Shown here in pieces: positions 521-40,916 of a DNA stretch of 47,618 nucleotides. The notes beneath the pieces were generated by a model. That model was not told the origin of the DNA, ran no database searches, and saw only the letters and a program-made list of their open reading frames with translations. The stretch lies in assembly GCA_017454675.1 (NCBI GenBank), contig JAFTCN010000047.1, forward strand, positions 1 through 47,618, in the 5' to 3' direction. This stretch comes from Clostridia bacterium (lineage in GTDB: Bacteria > Bacillota > Clostridia > Oscillospirales > CAG-272). Position 1 is the stretch's first letter. Every line of letters begins with the position of its first letter. The position numbers and the translations under genes were made by a program.

Positions 521-1474
521 ATGAAACCGATACTGAAATTCAGCCCCGAAGGGCGCTTCCGCATACTTATGGTCTCCGACATACAGGAACCGCCCTGCCC
601 CGACCCCAGGGCCCTGCGCTGCTACAGGGCGCTCGTCGATCACACGAGACCCGACCTGATAATATGGGGAGGAGACAACTGCGACGGCCGCAAGCTCAAG
701 ACTGAGCCCGAACTTCGCGAATACCTCGAGGTCTTTACCGCTCCGGCCGAGGAAGCCGGGATCCCGTGGATGCACATATTCGGAAATCACGACTATGACG
801 TCGATCTGCCCGTTAAGCGCCAGCACGAGCTGTACACAGCATACCCTCACAACATCTCGGGTACGTCGCCCGATGGCGTGCCCGGCGTTTCGAACTACAT
901 GGTCCCTGTATACAGGGACGACGGCAGAGCGGGCTACGCCGTATACGCCTTCGACACGATGTACAAGAACCCCGTGATAGAAGGGGTCCCGGGCGAGAAG
1001 ATACTGCTGCCCGAGCTTGCCCCTCCGGCGCGGAAATGGGACTTCCTTCGCTTCGAACAGCTGATGTGGTACTGGAACACGTCGCTGCGGCTCGAGAAGG
1101 AGAACGGCGGCAGGGTGCGCGCCGCGGCGGTCATGCACGTTCCGCTCTACGAGTTCATCAGGGCCGTCGGCAACCCGGAGGAGACCGGACTGCGCGGAGA
1201 CGCCGACCAGAAGATCCAGTCAGGCATGCTCAACTCCGGCTGCTTCGCCGCAATGCTCCAGCGCGGCGACATCGAATGCATCGCGGCGGGACATCTTCAC
1301 GAGGACACCTTTGACGCAGAATATGCGGGCATCAAACTGTGTTTCGACGGCTGCGCGGGATTTACACCGTCGTCGAAGCCCGGCCGCAGGGGAGGCCGCG
1401 TTTTCGACATAACGGCCGACGGCGGATTCTCGACGGAATTCATAAAATACAGCGACATAACGGACATCGACTGA
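521..1474 (+). CDS. Calcineurin-like metallophosphoesterase, 317 aa
   Basis: This is a predicted two-metal phosphoesterase (Metallophos superfamily), substrate unknown. The conserved blocks are in order: block I around D20 (MVSDIQ; the usual second-residue His is Gln22), block II GGDNCD at 50-55, block III GNHD at 88-91, a later His at 206 (VMHVPLYE) and block V AGHLHE at 256-261. It has no signal peptide, so it is probably cytoplasmic. The length fits small family members. It stands alone between its own promoter and a strong terminator, and opposes the tRNA cluster. ATG 521 is chosen for the AAGGAA site a few bases upstream. It serves here as the active reference for the degenerate relative at 34775-36394. 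Confidence 0.88.
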   Translation: MKPILKFSPEGRFRILMVSDIQEPPCPDPRALRCYRALVDHTRPDLIIWGGDNCDGRKLKTEPELREYLEVFTAPAEEAGIPWMHIFGNHDYDVDLPVKRQHELYTAYPHNISGTSPDGVPGVSNYMVPVYRDDGRAGYAVYAFDTMYKNPVIEGVPGEKILLPELAPPARKWDFLRFEQLMWYWNTSLRLEKENGGRVRAAAVMHVPLYEFIRAVGNPEETGLRGDADQKIQSGMLNSGCFAAMLQRGDIECIAAGHLHEDTFDAEYAGIKLCFDGCAGFTPSSKPGRRGGRVFDITADGGFSTEFIKYSDITDID

Positions 1475-33125: not shown

Positions 33126-33758
33126 TCAGGCGTCGCGCGATTCTATTATGAATACTCCGCCGGAGCGGACCGAGATCAGCGCACAGTTGCCTTCGATCTC
33201 GTTGCTTACCGCGTACTGCACGGTCCTGTCGATGCGCCCGCCCTTGAGAGGGTATTTGCAGCCGTCGATCTCCACGCCCTTTACCCTGCTGTCAGCCGCG
33301 ATCACAGACAGATACCGGTAGGGACTGCGTCCTATTAGCGCCGAAGACGAGCGCATGAAGCGAGCCCTCGACCTGCCGTCGGTGATGACGGCCCAGACGC
33401 CTTTCGAATTCAGGTATTCGAGGATGAAGAGGTTCGCCAGCGTGTGGTCGAGACGGCCGGCGAGGCCGCCTACGATAACGATCTGATCCGCTCCCCGTTC
33501 GAGCGCCAGGGATACGGCCGCCTGAGTGTCGGTGTTGTCCTTCACCGTGTTGAGGCGGACGATCTCGGGTCCGTCAGGGACGTTGTTCTGTCCGAGCGAA
33601 TCGAAGTCGCCTATGAGCACCGCGACCTTCTCGCCGAGGCGGAGGGCATTGCGGTAGCCCGAATCGGCCGCGATGACCAGGTCGTCGCCCTTGGGATGCT
33701 CGATTATGTATTCGGGGCAGATATCCCCGCCGGTGTAGATGAATGCTTTCGATCCCAT
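33126..33758 (-). CDS. thiN: Thiamine diphosphokinase, 210 aa
   Basis: ThiN transfers pyrophosphate from ATP to thiamine, making the cofactor TPP in the cytoplasm. Landmarks are AADSGYRNA near 31-39, LIGDFDSLG near 48-56 (acidic metal and ATP site), NTDTQAAVSLA near 75-85 and GGLAGRLDHTLAN near 97-109, the family core. The C-terminal beta domain (about 140-205) binds thiamine. The length is normal. It follows rsgA by 72 bases; in many Firmicutes rpe lies between these two, but it is absent here. Confidence 0.94.
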   Translation of the reverse strand: MGSKAFIYTGGDICPEYIIEHPKGDDLVIAADSGYRNALRLGEKVAVLIGDFDSLGQNNVPDGPEIVRLNTVKDNTDTQAAVSLALERGADQIVIVGGLAGRLDHTLANLFILEYLNSKGVWAVITDGRSRARFMRSSSALIGRSPYRYLSVIAADSRVKGVEIDGCKYPLKGGRIDRTVQYAVSNEIEGNCALISVRSGGVFIIESRDA

Positions 33759-33830: not shown

Positions 33831-34778
33831 TCAGTCCCATTTGCGCTTTTCCTTCAGGAGGCGGTACATCTCCCTGTAGCTCTCGTGCCTCGACGGCGCT
33901 ATCCTGCCCTCTCTGACTGCCTTCGCGACGCCGCAGTCAGCCTCACCGGTGTGTGTGCAGTCGGGCCAGCGGCAGTCGGGATAGCAGTCTGCGAAGTCGG
34001 GCATGCAGTCGGGGAGCGCCTCCGCCGGGATAAAATCAAAATTCGTGAAGTCTATCATCGAGAACCCGGGGGTGTCGGCAATGAACGCGCCGGGTATCCC
34101 GGGGGCGGGATACAGCTCGACCTTTCGCGTGGTGTGCCTGCCCCGTCCGGTCTTGCGGCTGACCTCTCCGGCGTCGAGTCCCAGGCCGGGGAAAAGCCGG
34201 TTGAGAAGGGTCGACTTTCCGGCGCCGGACGCGCCGGCGAATGCAGCGGTCTTTCCGGGGAGCGTCTCCGCGATGAACCGTCCGAGCTCTGTGACGCCGC
34301 AGCTCTCTCCCGCCGCGCCGTCCGGGCAGAATCCTGTCCTGAAGACGGGATAGCCGGACCTCCGGTATATGTCTTCCAGCCTGTCCGAGGAATCCTCATC
34401 CAGGTCGGACTTGGTCACGACGATCACCGCCGCCGTATCCCTGTATTCGGCCGCCGCGAGCAGCTTGTCGAGCGTAAGCAGCGACGTCCCGGGCCTCGCG
34501 GCCGAGCAGACGGCGAAAAGCGTGTCGATATTGGCCATCGGAGGCCTGATGAAGACGTTTTTCCGCTCTGCGACCCCGATGATCGACGCCCCCGCCGCCG
34601 CTCCTCTGCCTTCGGCTGCTCCGTCTGGCAGCGCGACCGTCACGCTGTCGCCCGGGAGCACGGGGCCGTCCAGCTTCAGCACGCCGCGGGCGCGGCAGTC
34701 GAAGCTCTCTCCTTCGCGGGTGAGGACTCCGAACAGTCCTCCGACTGCCCGTATGACGCGTCCTTCGACGGTCCTCAT
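33831..34778 (-). CDS. rsgA: Ribosome small-subunit-dependent GTPase A, 315 aa
   Basis: RsgA is a circularly permuted GTPase that checks late 30S subunit maturation. An N-terminal OB-fold (about 1-78) is followed by the G4 motif VTKSD (121-125), G1/P-loop GASGAGKST (182-190), a TTRK switch segment and G3 DTPGF. The C-terminal zinc knuckle is DCRWPDCTHTGEADC with the expected Cys and His. The length is normal. Its ATG 34778 overlaps the stop of the upstream gene by 4 bases (ATGA). In Firmicutes it usually follows pknB directly; here one extra gene is inserted. Confidence 0.96.
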   Translation of the reverse strand: MRTVEGRVIRAVGGLFGVLTREGESFDCRARGVLKLDGPVLPGDSVTVALPDGAAEGRGAAAGASIIGVAERKNVFIRPPMANIDTLFAVCSAARPGTSLLTLDKLLAAAEYRDTAAVIVVTKSDLDEDSSDRLEDIYRRSGYPVFRTGFCPDGAAGESCGVTELGRFIAETLPGKTAAFAGASGAGKSTLLNRLFPGLGLDAGEVSRKTGRGRHTTRKVELYPAPGIPGAFIADTPGFSMIDFTNFDFIPAEALPDCMPDFADCYPDCRWPDCTHTGEADCGVAKAVREGRIAPSRHESYREMYRLLKEKRKWD

Positions 34779-36394
34779 CGGGCGTTCTCCGAAACGGGGG
34801 CGAGGACGAATTCGGGAGAAAAGTCCCGCCTCCCGTCTTCGCCGGCGTCCTCCTCAAGTGCGAGGAAGGCTCCGCCGCGCAGGCTGTTGTGGAAGGCATA
34901 GCGCCCGCCCAGCCCGTACGAGGAGTAGTCGGCGCAGCCGCACAGTGCGAACGAGATCCCGGGGAAAGCGCCGCTCGCGCAGTCCTTCACGGCCGAGATA
35001 TTGTTGTTTCCGGCGTAGAACACGAAATCGCTGAACCCGCGGCCGGCGAGTTCGCCCATAAGGACGGAGGATGCGCCGGGAAGGCAGTCCGTCTCGCTGT
35101 CCCATATCCCCATCCCGTTCAGTTCCTCCGGTGTGAGCTCCGAAGTATACGCCTCAAGGACTCCGCTCACAAGGCCGGGGAACACCGCCGCGGCGGATAT
35201 ATCCCGGCCCGCTCCTCGACGCATGGCGGCGAAGTAGGCGGAGATGCCGGGCGACGGCCCCTCGGTGTCAGGGTAGCCGGAAGCAAGTCCGGCTCCGACC
35301 GCCAGCACGGCGGCCTCCGGAACGCCGTCCTTCGCGCTGATAAGCCACCTTCCCTCGGCGGGAATGATAACGTCTTTTCCCCCGATATCGGCGATGATCC
35401 CCGCTGTCTCCTTCAAGACCGGGGCAAGTTCGGAGCCGTCGGGGCCCTGCATGCAGAACCAGCGGGTCCCGAGGCTGTCGAGCGTCTCGGATATTGCGGT
35501 CCACGCCTCCCTGATCTCGCCGGGATCGGTCTTTCCGCAGTCGAGTCCTCCGTTGAAGATCACGGCGGACGGCGAAGTTTTGCCTATCAGGCTCTCTATC
35601 GCCTTCAGCGATTCGCCCCCGACCGAAGGCCGGGAGATCACCAGGACACCTGCGCCCTGATCCAGAAATACCGGAGTCTGCGGCAGCTTTTCCGAGACGC
35701 TCGTCCCGTACATCGTGCCGAAGAACCGGTGCAGCCGGCTGTATATCGCGAAATAGTCGGTGAATCTGTCGGCGGCCTGTATCGCGGCCTCCTCGCTCAT
35801 CGCGAGCAGGCTGACCGTTATTCCGTCTCCTTCGCCGCCGGCGCGGGCGATCTCCCAGCCGTCGGGGCCGAGCCGGAGCCAGACATCGAAATAGCTCTCT
35901 TCATTCTGCGATGTGTACCCCAGGAGCACCGTAAGGCTCGCGGTGTCCGCCGAAGCGTCGTATACGCTGTCCGGGACCGCTCTGACCTCCAGGGAATCGA
36001 CCGAGGACAGCTTTGAGATAACTATCCCGGCGACGTTCTCCGCCCAGCCGTCCGACGCGCCGTACACCACGAGCACCGACGCCCTGTCGTACTTTTTTAT
36101 CAGCTCTTCGGCCGAGATTCCGTTGTCGATGACCCCCGTCTTCAGTCCGACGGCCCGTATCACTGTGAATACGGCCGCGGCAGCGAAGAGCACGAGCAGG
36201 CCGAAGATCGATATCTTTACCGCCTTTTCGGCTTTGCCGCCGGTCGCGCGGCCGCCTTCGTCAGAACGGCTGCCTTCGTCAGAACGGCCGCCTTCGTAAG
36301 AACGGCTGCCTTCGTAAGAACGGCTGCCTTCGTCAGAACGGCTGCCTTCGTAAGAACGGCTGCCTTCGGACTTCCGTTTGAAAAACGGCTTCAT
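34775..36394 (-). CDS. Membrane-anchored degenerate metallophosphoesterase-like protein, 539 aa
   Basis: An N-terminal tail with seven hexapeptide EGSRS(Y/D)-type repeats (about 10-51) is followed by one membrane helix (about 60-81), so the bulk should be outside the cell. Residues about 153-215 resemble the small domain in the lipoprotein at 5946-7832. Residues 249-490 align by eye with the phosphoesterase at 521-1474: ISRPS for VSDIQ, GGLDCG (282-287) for GGDNCD, GPDG (317-320) for GNHD, AGNNN (461-465) for AGHLH, and a matching CGC near 485-487. The equivalents of metal ligands D20, D52, H90, H258 and H260 are Arg, Leu, Asp, Asn and Asn. It should therefore be catalytically dead and may bind a ligand. 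It overlaps pknB and rsgA by 4 bases each (ATGA). Confidence 0.78.
   Translation of the reverse strand: MKPFFKRKSEGSRSYEGSRSDEGSRSYEGSRSYEGGRSDEGSRSDEGGRATGGKAEKAVKISIFGLLVLFAAAAVFTVIRAVGLKTGVIDNGISAEELIKKYDRASVLVVYGASDGWAENVAGIVISKLSSVDSLEVRAVPDSVYDASADTASLTVLLGYTSQNEESYFDVWLRLGPDGWEIARAGGEGDGITVSLLAMSEEAAIQAADRFTDYFAIYSRLHRFFGTMYGTSVSEKLPQTPVFLDQGAGVLVISRPSVGGESLKAIESLIGKTSPSAVIFNGGLDCGKTDPGEIREAWTAISETLDSLGTRWFCMQGPDGSELAPVLKETAGIIADIGGKDVIIPAEGRWLISAKDGVPEAAVLAVGAGLASGYPDTEGPSPGISAYFAAMRRGAGRDISAAAVFPGLVSGVLEAYTSELTPEELNGMGIWDSETDCLPGASSVLMGELAGRGFSDFVFYAGNNNISAVKDCASGAFPGISFALCGCADYSSYGLGGRYAFHNSLRGGAFLALEEDAGEDGRRDFSPEFVLAPVSENAR
36242..36367 (-). repeat. 18-base tandem repeat coding EGSRS(Y/D) (7 units)
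   Basis: Seven 18-base units differ mainly at one codon (Tyr or Asp) and encode the cytoplasmic N-terminal tail of the degenerate phosphoesterase. The reading frame is preserved in every unit. Ser and Tyr recur in each unit. Confidence 0.95.
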
Positions 36395-38862
36395 GGCGTC
36401 GTTACGGGGAGAGTCTCCGCCGAAGTCTCCTCCGGCGGTTCAGTCGGTTGCGGTTCGGTCTGCGGTTCGGTCGGTTGCGGTTCGGTCTCAGGGACCTCGA
36501 TCTCGGGACCGGTGTATCCCGGCCCGCGGCTGACGTATATGTCGACCGTTATCGTTCCCTCAAGGCCGGTGATCTCGGTATCGGGAGCGGCAGACTGTCC
36601 GAAGACGGTGTATTCCCCGGCGGTGTTCGCGCGATAGAGTATCCTTGCTTCGATGCCGCATTCGAGCATAAGCGACACGGCGTCCTCGTAATCCATCCCG
36701 ACGGTGTCGGGCACAGTGACTGTCACGGTGTAGTCGGGACCGCCCGAAACGGTAAGAGACACGTTGACGTAACCCGAAGCGATGTCCACCCTGGTCTTCG
36801 GCGCGGGAGACTGCGCTATGACGGTGCCGGCGGGAGCGTCGTCCCTCTTGTAGATCACGGCTATGCGCGGCACGGCGAAGCCCTCAAAACCGTAGTTTAT
36901 GAGCAGCTCGGCGTCTTCGAGAGGCAGATTGCATACGTTGTACATCGCGAGAGTGCGGTCGTATTCGGGGCCTCCGCTCACATTGAGGATGACCTCGGTG
37001 AGCTCTGCGTCGATATCCGATTCGGGGGACGGCGACTGCACCACGACGGTGCCGACCTCCGTGTCGCTCTTGACGAAGATGGTCCTGCCCGTCAGTCCGT
37101 ATACCGCGAGCCTGGCTGTTGCCTCCTCCGAAGTGAGACCCCGGACGTCGGGGTATACGTTGGTGTTGAAGTCCGGGCCGCCGCTGACCACGAAGTCCAC
37201 CTCCGACGCGCCGGTGTAGAGCGCGCCGCCCTCTGCGGGTTCATGGCTTATAATGCTGCCGGCGGGCATCGACGACCTGGTGTAGATCACGTCGCCGACG
37301 TATATCTGATGCTCGTCGAGGACCTTCATTACTTCGGGCTCGGTCATGCCGGTGAAGTCGGGAAGAACGAAGACAGAGGCCTCGGTCCCGATGCTCACGC
37401 GCAGCGTGATGCGGCTGCCGATCTCGACTTTCGTCCCCGGCTCGGGGTCGGTGGCGATGACATAGCCTGACGGGATGACAAGGCTCGACTCGCGCACGAC
37501 GAGCACGGTGAAGCCGCTCGAACGCAGCGACGTCTGCGCTATCCGCCAGTCCATGATGGTGAAGTCCTCAAGTACGGCTGTCTCGACGCCCTTGCTGACC
37601 GTAAGCGTGACGGTGCAGGGGCTCCTGCGGCTGGCGCCGCCGTTGGGATTCTGCTTGATTATAGTTCCCGCGGGGTGATCCTCGGAGAACACATATTCGA
37701 CTTCGAGTCTGAAATCCGAGCCGAGGCCGAGCGTCTCGAGCTGCTCGCCGTAAAGCTTTTTGTCGCCGATCTCGTCCTCGGACATGTACATCCCGCCTTC
37801 GACGTTCGGCACGGTGACGCTCTTTCCGCCGAGAGTGCCTATGTTGAGCCTGTCTAGGACGGTGAACGCCGAAACGATGCCGACCAGCAGCAGAGCGAGC
37901 GCGATCCCTATGATGACGGGGGTCATCGACCGGCTCGGCGGGTTCTCGGAGCGGTTCTTCTCCGATCTCGTCTCGGCCTTGATGCGCGCGGGCGTCATGA
38001 CCTTCGCGCGTCTGTTCCGCTTCAGTCTGCGAAGCTCTCTGAACATGTCCAGGGCGCTCTGGTATCTGTCCTCCGGCTTTTTTGCGATCGACGACATGAT
38101 CAGCGTCTCGAGTCCCTTCGGGATCTTCCGGTTGATCTCGCGCGGCCGGACCGGCTCGGCATTTATGTGCATCATGACGACGGACATAGCGGTCTCGTCG
38201 TCGAAAGGCAGCCTGCCGGTCGCCATCTCGTACATCATGATGCCGAGCGAATAGAGGTCGGACCGGAAATCGATGTTCTCGCCCTCGGCCTGCTCGGGAC
38301 TGATGTAGTATACGGTGCCGATCGCCTTCTCGGACACGGTGCCGGTCTCGGCGTTCGGCAGTTTCGCGATGCCGAAGTCGGTGACCTTGACGTATCCGTT
38401 CTTCAGGAGCATGATGTTCTGCGGCTTGATGTCGCGGTGGACTATGCCCTTCGAGTGGGCGTGCGCCAGCGCCGCCAGGATCTGCTCGGTGTATCCCTCG
38501 AGCTCGTCGAAGCTGAGCGCGCCGCGCTTGTCCATGTAGTCGCGGAGAGAGATGCCCTCGACATACTCGAGGACTATATATTTCACGTCGCCGCTGATGG
38601 ATATGTCGAATACCGACACGATGTTCGGATGAGAGAGCATCGAGACCGCTTTCCACTCGTTCATGAACCGGCGGAGGACTTCCCGGTCGCGGGAGGCCTC
38701 CTCCTTTATGATCTTGACCGCGACGGGCTTGCCGCTGTCGAGATCGGTGGCTTTGAAGACATATGCCATTCCGCCGCTTCCGAGGAGCTTCTCGAGCCGG
38801 TATCTGGCGTCGAGGGTCTTGCCGAGGAAGCGCTCGTATTCTTTCTTTCTTACTTTGTCCAT
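36391..38862 (-). CDS. pknB: PASTA-domain serine/threonine protein kinase, 823 aa
   Basis: This is a PknB/PrkC/Stk1-type kinase that senses wall fragments and phosphorylates cytoplasmic proteins. The kinase domain (about 20-283) is complete: Gly loop GSGGMAYV (28-35), K50, E69, HRD (142-144), DFG (162-164), SPE (188-190) and DRYQSA near 265. A basic linker leads to a membrane helix (about 315-336). I count six extracellular PASTA modules (from about 348 to 795), each ending in a VSxG(P) or VSIGT segment; three to five are usual. A Pro/Glu/Thr tail (TEPQPTEP repeats) closes it. It pairs with the PP2C phosphatase upstream (106-base gap) and overlaps the downstream gene by ATGA. Confidence 0.95.
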   Translation of the reverse strand: MDKVRKKEYERFLGKTLDARYRLEKLLGSGGMAYVFKATDLDSGKPVAVKIIKEEASRDREVLRRFMNEWKAVSMLSHPNIVSVFDISISGDVKYIVLEYVEGISLRDYMDKRGALSFDELEGYTEQILAALAHAHSKGIVHRDIKPQNIMLLKNGYVKVTDFGIAKLPNAETGTVSEKAIGTVYYISPEQAEGENIDFRSDLYSLGIMMYEMATGRLPFDDETAMSVVMMHINAEPVRPREINRKIPKGLETLIMSSIAKKPEDRYQSALDMFRELRRLKRNRRAKVMTPARIKAETRSEKNRSENPPSRSMTPVIIGIALALLLVGIVSAFTVLDRLNIGTLGGKSVTVPNVEGGMYMSEDEIGDKKLYGEQLETLGLGSDFRLEVEYVFSEDHPAGTIIKQNPNGGASRRSPCTVTLTVSKGVETAVLEDFTIMDWRIAQTSLRSSGFTVLVVRESSLVIPSGYVIATDPEPGTKVEIGSRITLRVSIGTEASVFVLPDFTGMTEPEVMKVLDEHQIYVGDVIYTRSSMPAGSIISHEPAEGGALYTGASEVDFVVSGGPDFNTNVYPDVRGLTSEEATARLAVYGLTGRTIFVKSDTEVGTVVVQSPSPESDIDAELTEVILNVSGGPEYDRTLAMYNVCNLPLEDAELLINYGFEGFAVPRIAVIYKRDDAPAGTVIAQSPAPKTRVDIASGYVNVSLTVSGGPDYTVTVTVPDTVGMDYEDAVSLMLECGIEARILYRANTAGEYTVFGQSAAPDTEITGLEGTITVDIYVSRGPGYTGPEIEVPETEPQPTEPQTEPQPTEPPEETSAETLPVTTP

Positions 38863-38968: not shown

Positions 38969-39742
38969 TCAGAGCTCGATCAGTAAGACCGTTATATTGT
39001 CGGGCCCGCCGGCTTTTCTGGCGGCGGATACGAGCCTGTCGGCTTTTTTCGCTATCGTGTTGCCGCTGGAGAGCACCGACAGGATCTTTTCCGCCGGCAC
39101 GCAGGTGTACAGACCGTCAGAGCAGATCATGAGGTATCCGGCCTCGCCGTTCTCGGGAGAGGTATCGACACCGATTATGTCGGCATCAACGTAGGTATCG
39201 ACGCCAACCGCCCTCGTGATGATGTTCCGGATCGGCGAGTGCGTCGCGTCCTCGGCCGTGATGGCCCCCTTGTCGACCATCTCCTGGACCATCGAGTGGT
39301 CGCGGGTCAGCTGAGTCAGCCGGTCGGAGAAGACGCGGTAGAGACGGCTGTCACCGACGTTCACAGACCAGGCGAAGCCCGAATCGGTTATCAGAACGGC
39401 GTTGAGCGTCGTACCCATTCCGTTGAGGCTGCCGTCCTCCTTCTCTCTCGCCTTGCTGAAGACGGCATAGTTGGCGGCGTCGGCGGAGGCCGTCAGTGCG
39501 TTTCGCACCGAACGTTCGCTCAGATCCGGAACCGCCGCGGGGTTGTCGGGGATGAGCGTCTCGCGCATCATGGCGACGAATGCCTCGAGCGCCGTTTTCG
39601 ACGCGAGAGAGCCTCCGGCGTAGCCTCCCATGCCGTCGCAGACGACGCAGAGAGTCACCCCCGGAAGCAGACTGTATATTCCGAAGCTGTCCTGATTCTC
39701 GTGACGGATGATTCCGACATCGCTTTTTCCGTAAAATCTCAT
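38969..39742 (-). CDS. stp: PP2C-family protein serine/threonine phosphatase, 257 aa
   Basis: This cytoplasmic metal-dependent phosphatase (PrpC/Stp) is the usual partner of the PASTA kinase and reverses its phosphorylations. Landmarks are RHENQDSFG (13-21), CDGMGGYAGG (35-44) with the metal Asp, the SVNVGDSRLYR motif, TRDHSMVQEMV, ICSDGLY and the final GGPDNITVLLIE. The length is standard. It lies 43 bases after rlmN and just before pknB, the canonical order. Confidence 0.95.
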   Translation of the reverse strand: MRFYGKSDVGIIRHENQDSFGIYSLLPGVTLCVVCDGMGGYAGGSLASKTALEAFVAMMRETLIPDNPAAVPDLSERSVRNALTASADAANYAVFSKAREKEDGSLNGMGTTLNAVLITDSGFAWSVNVGDSRLYRVFSDRLTQLTRDHSMVQEMVDKGAITAEDATHSPIRNIITRAVGVDTYVDADIIGVDTSPENGEAGYLMICSDGLYTCVPAEKILSVLSSGNTIAKKADRLVSAARKAGGPDNITVLLIEL

Positions 39743-39785: not shown

Positions 39786-40916
39786 TTATATCTTCTCTTG
39801 TTTGTTTTCCGTTCCGGCCGTGTCCGCGGCTTCCGCAGCAGAGCGCCGGAGCTGTCCGCACGACGCGTTTATATCCGGCCCCAGCGTCCGCCTCACCGTG
39901 GCTCGGACACCGTGCTTTTCGAGCGTCTGCCGGAAGGCCTCGGTCTGCGCTCTGTCGGGCGCCCGGAGATCGCGTTCCCTGACACTGTTGAGCGGGATCA
40001 GGTTGACGTGTATCGGATACCGGCTCATGGTGCCCCGGCGCAGCGCCCGGTTCAGGAGCTCAGCCAGCGCCGCCGCGTCCTTTTCTCCGCAGTTTTTTCC
40101 GCTTATCAGAGTGTACTCGAACGATATCCGGCGGCCCGTCGCACCGGCGTAGCGCCGGCACGCGGCCAGCAGCTCGGAGATGTTCCAGCGCCGGTTGACC
40201 GGCATAACGGCGTCGCGGACGGCGTCGTCGTGAGCGTGGAGCGACACGGAGAGCGTTATCTGGAACTTCTCGGCGGCAAGTCTGTCGATACCGTCGACGA
40301 CCCCGCATGTCGAGAGCGATATGTGCCGCTGGCCGATGCAGAGCCCGCCGCGCGGATCGCTGACGAGACGTATGAAGGCCGTCGACGCTTCATAGTTGTC
40401 GAGCGGCTCGCCGATGCCCATCATGACGATGTTGTCGACCCGCTCGCCGCTGTCGTTCCCCGCGGCGATCACCTCGCCGAGGATCTCTCCGGCGGTCATG
40501 TTCCGTATCCGCCCGCCGAGCGTGGACGCGCAGAACGCGCAGCCCATCCGGCAGCCGACCTGCGTCGAGACGCAGACGGTGTTGCCGTGCCTGTACCGCA
40601 TGAGTACGGTCTCGATCAGGTTGCCGTCGGCGAGCCGGAGCAGATATTTCACCGTGCCGTCGACCGACGACACCAGCTTCCGGGCTATCTCCGGCAGCCT
40701 GTACGGGGCCCTTTCCTCAAGCTCCGCGACGAGCTTTGCCGGTATGTTGCCCATCTTTCCGGGCGGGATCCCGCGCTGCATGCGCGGGTATATCTGTTCA
40801 GCCCTGTAGGAGGGCTCGCCCAGCGACGCGAGCAGTTCCGACAGCTGTCCGAAGCTGAACGAGAGCAGGTCCGGAGGATATCCGGCGGACGGTCCCGCGA
40901 CTGTTCGGTTGTCCAT
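39786..40916 (-). CDS. rlmN: 23S rRNA (adenine-2503-C2)-methyltransferase, radical SAM, 376 aa
   Basis: RlmN methylates A2503 of 23S rRNA (and A37 of some tRNAs) with a 4Fe-4S cluster and SAM. The cluster motif is C122-x3-C126-x2-C129 (CRMGCAFCAS), with MGIGEPLDN, SLHAHDD and NLIPLN segments as expected. A conserved C-terminal Cys in INASCGQL (near 355) is the methylated catalytic residue of the family. The N-terminus has the accessory domain with YPRMQRGIPP. The length is normal. It starts 21 bases after rsmB in the long minus-strand run. Confidence 0.96.
   Translation of the reverse strand: MDNRTVAGPSAGYPPDLLSFSFGQLSELLASLGEPSYRAEQIYPRMQRGIPPGKMGNIPAKLVAELEERAPYRLPEIARKLVSSVDGTVKYLLRLADGNLIETVLMRYRHGNTVCVSTQVGCRMGCAFCASTLGGRIRNMTAGEILGEVIAAGNDSGERVDNIVMMGIGEPLDNYEASTAFIRLVSDPRGGLCIGQRHISLSTCGVVDGIDRLAAEKFQITLSVSLHAHDDAVRDAVMPVNRRWNISELLAACRRYAGATGRRISFEYTLISGKNCGEKDAAALAELLNRALRRGTMSRYPIHVNLIPLNSVRERDLRAPDRAQTEAFRQTLEKHGVRATVRRTLGPDINASCGQLRRSAAEAADTAGTENKQEKI

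Follow-up and report, generated by a model that had tools for sequence, protein, structure and literature searches.

The window analysed here, a stretch of 47,618 nucleotides, carries a gene, here called X, between the PASTA kinase gene prkC and the GTPase gene rsgA, in the order rlmN – prpC – prkC – X – rsgA – thiN (Table 1). The stop codon of prkC and the start codon of X share the tetranucleotide ATGA at 36391–36394, and the stop of X and the start of rsgA share a second ATGA at 34775–34778. The reading frame has exactly the coordinates given in an earlier note on this DNA, both overlaps that the note mentions are real, and its suggestion that X is co-encoded with the kinase agrees with the overlap and with retention of X at this locus by other species. 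Not every species shares the translational overlap (a gap of 51 bp separates the genes in L025), leaving adjacency alone as the constant feature. Gene order is otherwise that of the Firmicutes prpC-prkC-cpgA (rsgA) operon, from which this locus differs in the additional gene between prkC and rsgA.

Table 1. Genes, domains and motifs discussed in the text, with their positions in the window
Feature	Position	Strand	Description
X	34775..36394	minus	539 aa; a cytoplasmic tail and a single TM helix, followed by a GH67N-like domain and a degenerate metallophosphoesterase (MPE) domain
X residues 1–55, predicted disordered cytoplasmic tail	36230..36394	minus	6-residue (18-bp) tandem repeats inside
X residues about 57–85, single transmembrane helix (signal anchor)	36140..36226	minus	hydrophobic segment present in orthologues too
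X residues about 89–235, GH67/GH20 N-terminal-like accessory domain, probably extracellular	35690..36130	minus	Foldseek and profile relatives
X residues about 241–535, MPE-like domain	34790..35674	minus	all canonical metal/catalytic positions replaced
NGGLDCG, X residues 281–287	35534..35554	minus	counterpart of MPE GGD(N)xxxG motif
AGNNN, X residues 461–465	35000..35014	minus	counterpart of MPE AGHxH motif
GLGGRYAFHNSLRGG (GLGGRxxxNNSLRGG element), X residues 494–508	34871..34915	minus	best-conserved X element across both genera
prkC/pknB, PASTA Ser/Thr kinase	36391..38862	minus	823 aa, 6 PASTA stretches
rsgA/cpgA GTPase	33831..34778	minus	start codon overlaps X stop
prpC (PP2C-type phosphatase)	38969..39742	minus	named by position and sequence
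rlmN	39786..40916	minus	named from sequence
thiN, thiamine pyrophosphokinase	33126..33758	minus	family match
Stand-alone MPE, ligands intact, paralogue for comparison	521..1474	plus	

The predicted product consists of a disordered tail of ~55 residues, a helix (residues 54–85), a mixed alpha/beta domain reaching to about residue 235 and a second domain that continues to the end of the protein. The single membrane helix described previously corresponds to a single hydrophobic helix at residues about 57–85. An 18-bp tandem repeat (6.7 copies, 36249–36368) encodes the Ser/Tyr/Asp-rich cytoplasmic tail and differs in copy number in the sister species; the tail is very short in L027 and L033–L035, and long and charged in a second genus, g80.

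As a single sequence X has no Pfam or NCBIfam match and no significant PDB sequence match (phmmer); a profile search of the PDB with X returned nothing significant, and a single-protein scan of genome contigs recovered only the sister species. Pairwise BLASTP aligns X with the stand-alone MPE of the window (E = 0.005), and a profile built from the X orthologues of the genus (A1) finds this same MPE as its sole non-self match in the whole genome of the window (E = 4.3e-7). Across 295 family genomes, X orthologues aside, A1 matches mostly open reading frames about as long as an MPE, together with some that are longer, and the matches read individually (L078–L085) contain MPE motifs. Against a nine-member MPE alignment A1 scores an hhalign probability of 99.4% (E = 8.6e-22, 272 columns), compared to 0.2% against a control rsgA alignment, which rules out a chance alignment. 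Profile search and hhalign thus relate X over the whole domain to the calcineurin-like metallophosphoesterase superfamily.

The AlphaFold2 model of X is of moderate quality (mean pLDDT 68.6) and low in confidence around the C-terminal motif. Foldseek places it in the PDB beside two unrelated groups, GH67/GH20 enzymes and MPEs (1uf3, 2yvt, Rv0805, SbcD); the output has no residue ranges, and, guided by the profile results, we attribute the GH67/GH20 matches to the first domain and the MPE matches to the second. The second-genus homologue gives a better model (pLDDT 75.2), which matches purple acid phosphatase, Lmo2642 and GpdQ with E-values down to 1.7e-9 and the GAP50 structure 3tgh at 2.8e-6. 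On these two models the predicted MPE fold of X is sound, a fold unrelated to MPEs being ruled out by profile and fold comparison together, and X is almost certainly derived from an MPE. The earlier note's proposal of resemblance to the intact paralogue and of an MPE-like fold therefore stands; the Cys-rich end cited in its favour is a weak feature, and the strongly conserved C-terminal element is instead GLGGRxxxNNSLRGG. Calcineurin-like MPEs (PF00149), here stand-alone proteins of ~330 aa from the same bacterial family, resemble X in motif order, predicted fold and whole-domain alignment, but they have neither its membrane anchor nor its GH67N-like domain, and X in turn lacks their metal ligands and the catalytic His.

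This additional domain (residues about 89–235), absent from the earlier reading, has no direct Pfam match in isolation or within X. Its relation to the N-terminal domain of GH67 enzymes emerges from the Foldseek match of the X model to 1k9e (GH67 alpha-glucuronidases, E 3.3e-7) and from a profile neighbour, L124, which matches Pfam Glyco_hydro_67N at 4.5e-9. A profile of the domain finds relatives in 52 of 71 family genera, and those examined carry GDSL lipase, endonuclease/exonuclease/phosphatase, DUF4838, BNR, alkaline phosphatase or GHL10 domains. Since the domain is common on exported hydrolases, an extracellular hydrolase was probably the ancestor of X, and these relatives together with the anchor suggest that X is itself exported.

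All eight positions of the MPE ligand set (D-x-H / GD / GNHD / H / GHxH) are replaced in X. By alignment, D20 corresponds to Arg255, Q/H22 to Ser257, D52 to Gly283, N89 to Pro318, H90 to Asp319, H206 to Pro406, H258 to Asn463 and H260 to Asn465. The counterparts of D20 and Q/H22 were set by hand, because the aligner opens a gap at that spot, with the conserved Ser before D20 at Ser254; the register of D52 is supported by L036, which has Asp exactly in the Gly283 column. The loss of ligands reported previously (Arg, Leu, Asp, Asn and Asn) is thus upheld, with the correction that the D52 counterpart is Gly283 and not Leu284, an offset of one residue; the replacement of H206 had been overlooked. 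Members of the genus show only isolated canonical letters, such as the Asp in L036, and most former ligand columns are no more and no less variable, roughly, than an average one. Pro406 is invariant in the genus, and most of GLGGRxxxNNSLRGG is invariant or close to it. Judged from these residues, X is very probably catalytically dead.

In g80, X lies at the prkC/rsgA locus in five genomes, prkC being hidden by contig ends in two of them, and its match to the Pfam MPE family reaches the cut-off or falls just short of it. This version retains the aspartates at D20 and D52, H206 and the two histidines of GHxH (GD, HTP and GHDH are kept), while GNHD is replaced by GEQD, and the second His by Asp. 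Both genera have therefore lost the catalytic GNHD motif, no homologue at the locus has the full ligand set, and the g80 protein looks, from its residues, like an intermediate in ligand loss. The ligands kept in g80 and the Asp of L036 could also indicate that X retains an unorthodox enzymatic or metal-binding activity through other residues, but we consider this unlikely given the variable ligand columns in the genus, the invariant Pro at the H206 position and the absence of GNHD throughout.

Within the genus, X lies at the prkC/rsgA locus in all 12 further species sampled, to the extent that contig boundaries let this be seen (X is split over two contigs in G007, and the G009 contig stops inside the gene). 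Together with the g80 genomes, this answers the earlier question of whether other species keep the gene between the kinase and rsgA. The genomes are draft assemblies in numerous contigs. Scans of the family and order detected no further full-length X, and hence none away from prkC/rsgA, so that X is constantly linked to prkC in the sampled carriers. Only two of the 71 sampled genera of the family carry it: among 68 same-contig prkC-rsgA pairs there are three carriers (G000, G010 and G091), and X is missing from all 65 others: in 64 of these the matched parts lie no more than 840 bp apart, which leaves no room for X, while the 1455 bp between matched prkC and rsgA in G133 contained no X on inspection. 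X is thus a pseudo-phosphoesterase that the prpC-prkC-rsgA operon has recruited in this lineage specifically, present in every sampled species of the genus, half-degenerate in the second genus and absent from the other pairs. In a tree of four flanking genes, both X-bearing genera fall with g19 and g92 in one clade (support 0.999) whose internal order is not resolved. The simplest reading is a single insertion of X, g19 and g92 having either lost the gene or branched off early; lateral transfer may alternatively have produced the pattern.

Comparison with the sister species gives a dN/dS of 0.21 for X overall and 0.15 for its MPE part, compared to 0.14 for rsgA and 0.09 for the available part of prkC. 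X is therefore a working gene under purifying selection, looser than that on its neighbours. It also diverges much faster, at about 24–34% identity where prkC holds 47–62%, which fits a looser role. Fast divergence and the loss of all catalytic residues might be read as signs of a decaying gene without function, but this is extremely improbable: the frame is open wherever no contig end truncates X, the invariant motifs persist, and dN/dS and conservation together speak strongly against pseudogene decay. The tail is the least conserved part, with a dN/dS of about 1.4 based on few changes. Its Ser/Tyr-rich tandem repeats, and the long charged tails of g80, raise the possibility that the tail is the working part, as a kinase substrate or docking site, and the ectodomain a mere anchor; this appears highly unlikely, as it is the ectodomain that carries the constraint and the tail is very short in several orthologues.

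Several observations concern kinases and PASTA proteins in related genomes. In three other genera of the family (g56, g71 and g48), rlmN and rsgA flank a gene whose product, a membrane-anchored protein of 276–422 aa, is made of PASTA repeats only (L159:1682-2950 (-), L160:1842-3095 (-), L161:2021-2893 (-), L162:3460-4290 (+) and L163:2212-3084 (-)). In these genomes prpC was not detected, and a Pkinase-family match was present in one of six (G067), weak and elsewhere in the genome; G059 is 71% complete and the other five 93–97%. A PASTA ectodomain without a kinase fits reported kinase-independent PASTA functions (PMC12505970). PrkC is 708–834 aa long in X carriers (L025–L035, L073–L076) and mostly 560–680 aa in non-carriers, a difference that may reflect phylogeny only; we set the longer PASTA ectodomain aside as evidence because it is confounded by phylogeny (744 aa in g92, 783 in g53, up to 757 in g65). 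The genome of the window also contains a second, weaker Pkinase-family match (G000:C52:23893-24783) in an open frame of 742 aa.

Our search of the open-access literature found neither a PASTA kinase associated with a metallophosphoesterase nor a bacterial pseudoenzyme of the metallophosphoesterase type. In the B. subtilis prpC-prkC-cpgA system CpgA is a target of PrkC, and muropeptide sensing has been linked to the PASTA domains (PMC6449344); in S. aureus the membrane protein AuxB binds PknB (PMC12505970). AuxB is comparable to X as a type of membrane partner of a PASTA kinase, but is unrelated: it has four TM helices and lacks an MPE domain. The MPE fold serves as a scaffold in VPS29 (PMC9636581), a retromer component that resembles X in its non-catalytic use of the fold, by principle only, being eukaryotic, cytosolic and without close sequence relation. 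Plasmodium GAP50 holds a complex (PMC8949495) and, like X, combines a membrane anchor with a purple-acid-phosphatase-like fold, but it is eukaryotic, has reported phosphatase activity and is not encoded in a kinase operon.

We propose that X began as an exported phosphoesterase whose gene was inserted between prkC and rsgA in an ancestor of the clade, and that its active site was then lost, partly in one genus and fully in that of the window, while the gene stayed under purifying selection. Co-produced with the PASTA kinase, X would work without catalysis as its partner, tuning or positioning the kinase by binding either a wall-derived glycan or phospho-ligand or the kinase's own PASTA repeats. 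From the operon context, and by analogy with the B. subtilis and S. aureus cases and with VPS29 and GAP50, in which MPE folds act as a scaffold or an anchor, we give about an even chance to X serving the kinase ectodomain as a non-catalytic partner that binds a ligand or provides a scaffold. Against a partnership with the kinase, genes that share an operon need not have interacting products. The main rival explanation, which we hold to be possible but less probable, is that X binds an envelope glycan or phospho-polymer non-catalytically in a job of its own and is merely co-expressed. Exported hydrolases commonly carry a GH67N-like accessory domain, the operon also holds the unrelated rlmN and thiN, and the overlap is not conserved, all of which suit such an independent role; its confinement to the prkC/rsgA locus, with no full-length copy elsewhere in the family or order, does not.

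If X is indeed a partner of the kinase, the two might together form a composite wall sensor, in which a captured exported hydrolase became a dedicated extracellular receptor subunit in steps, from GNHD to GEQD and then to full loss, a scenario we advance only tentatively. For the question of what PASTA kinases sense, and with which partners, X provides a specific candidate partner: a lineage-conserved, probably dead enzyme encoded between the kinase and rsgA, whose product is a substrate of the kinase in B. subtilis. The two genera may represent successive stages in the change from enzyme to pseudoenzyme at one fixed locus.
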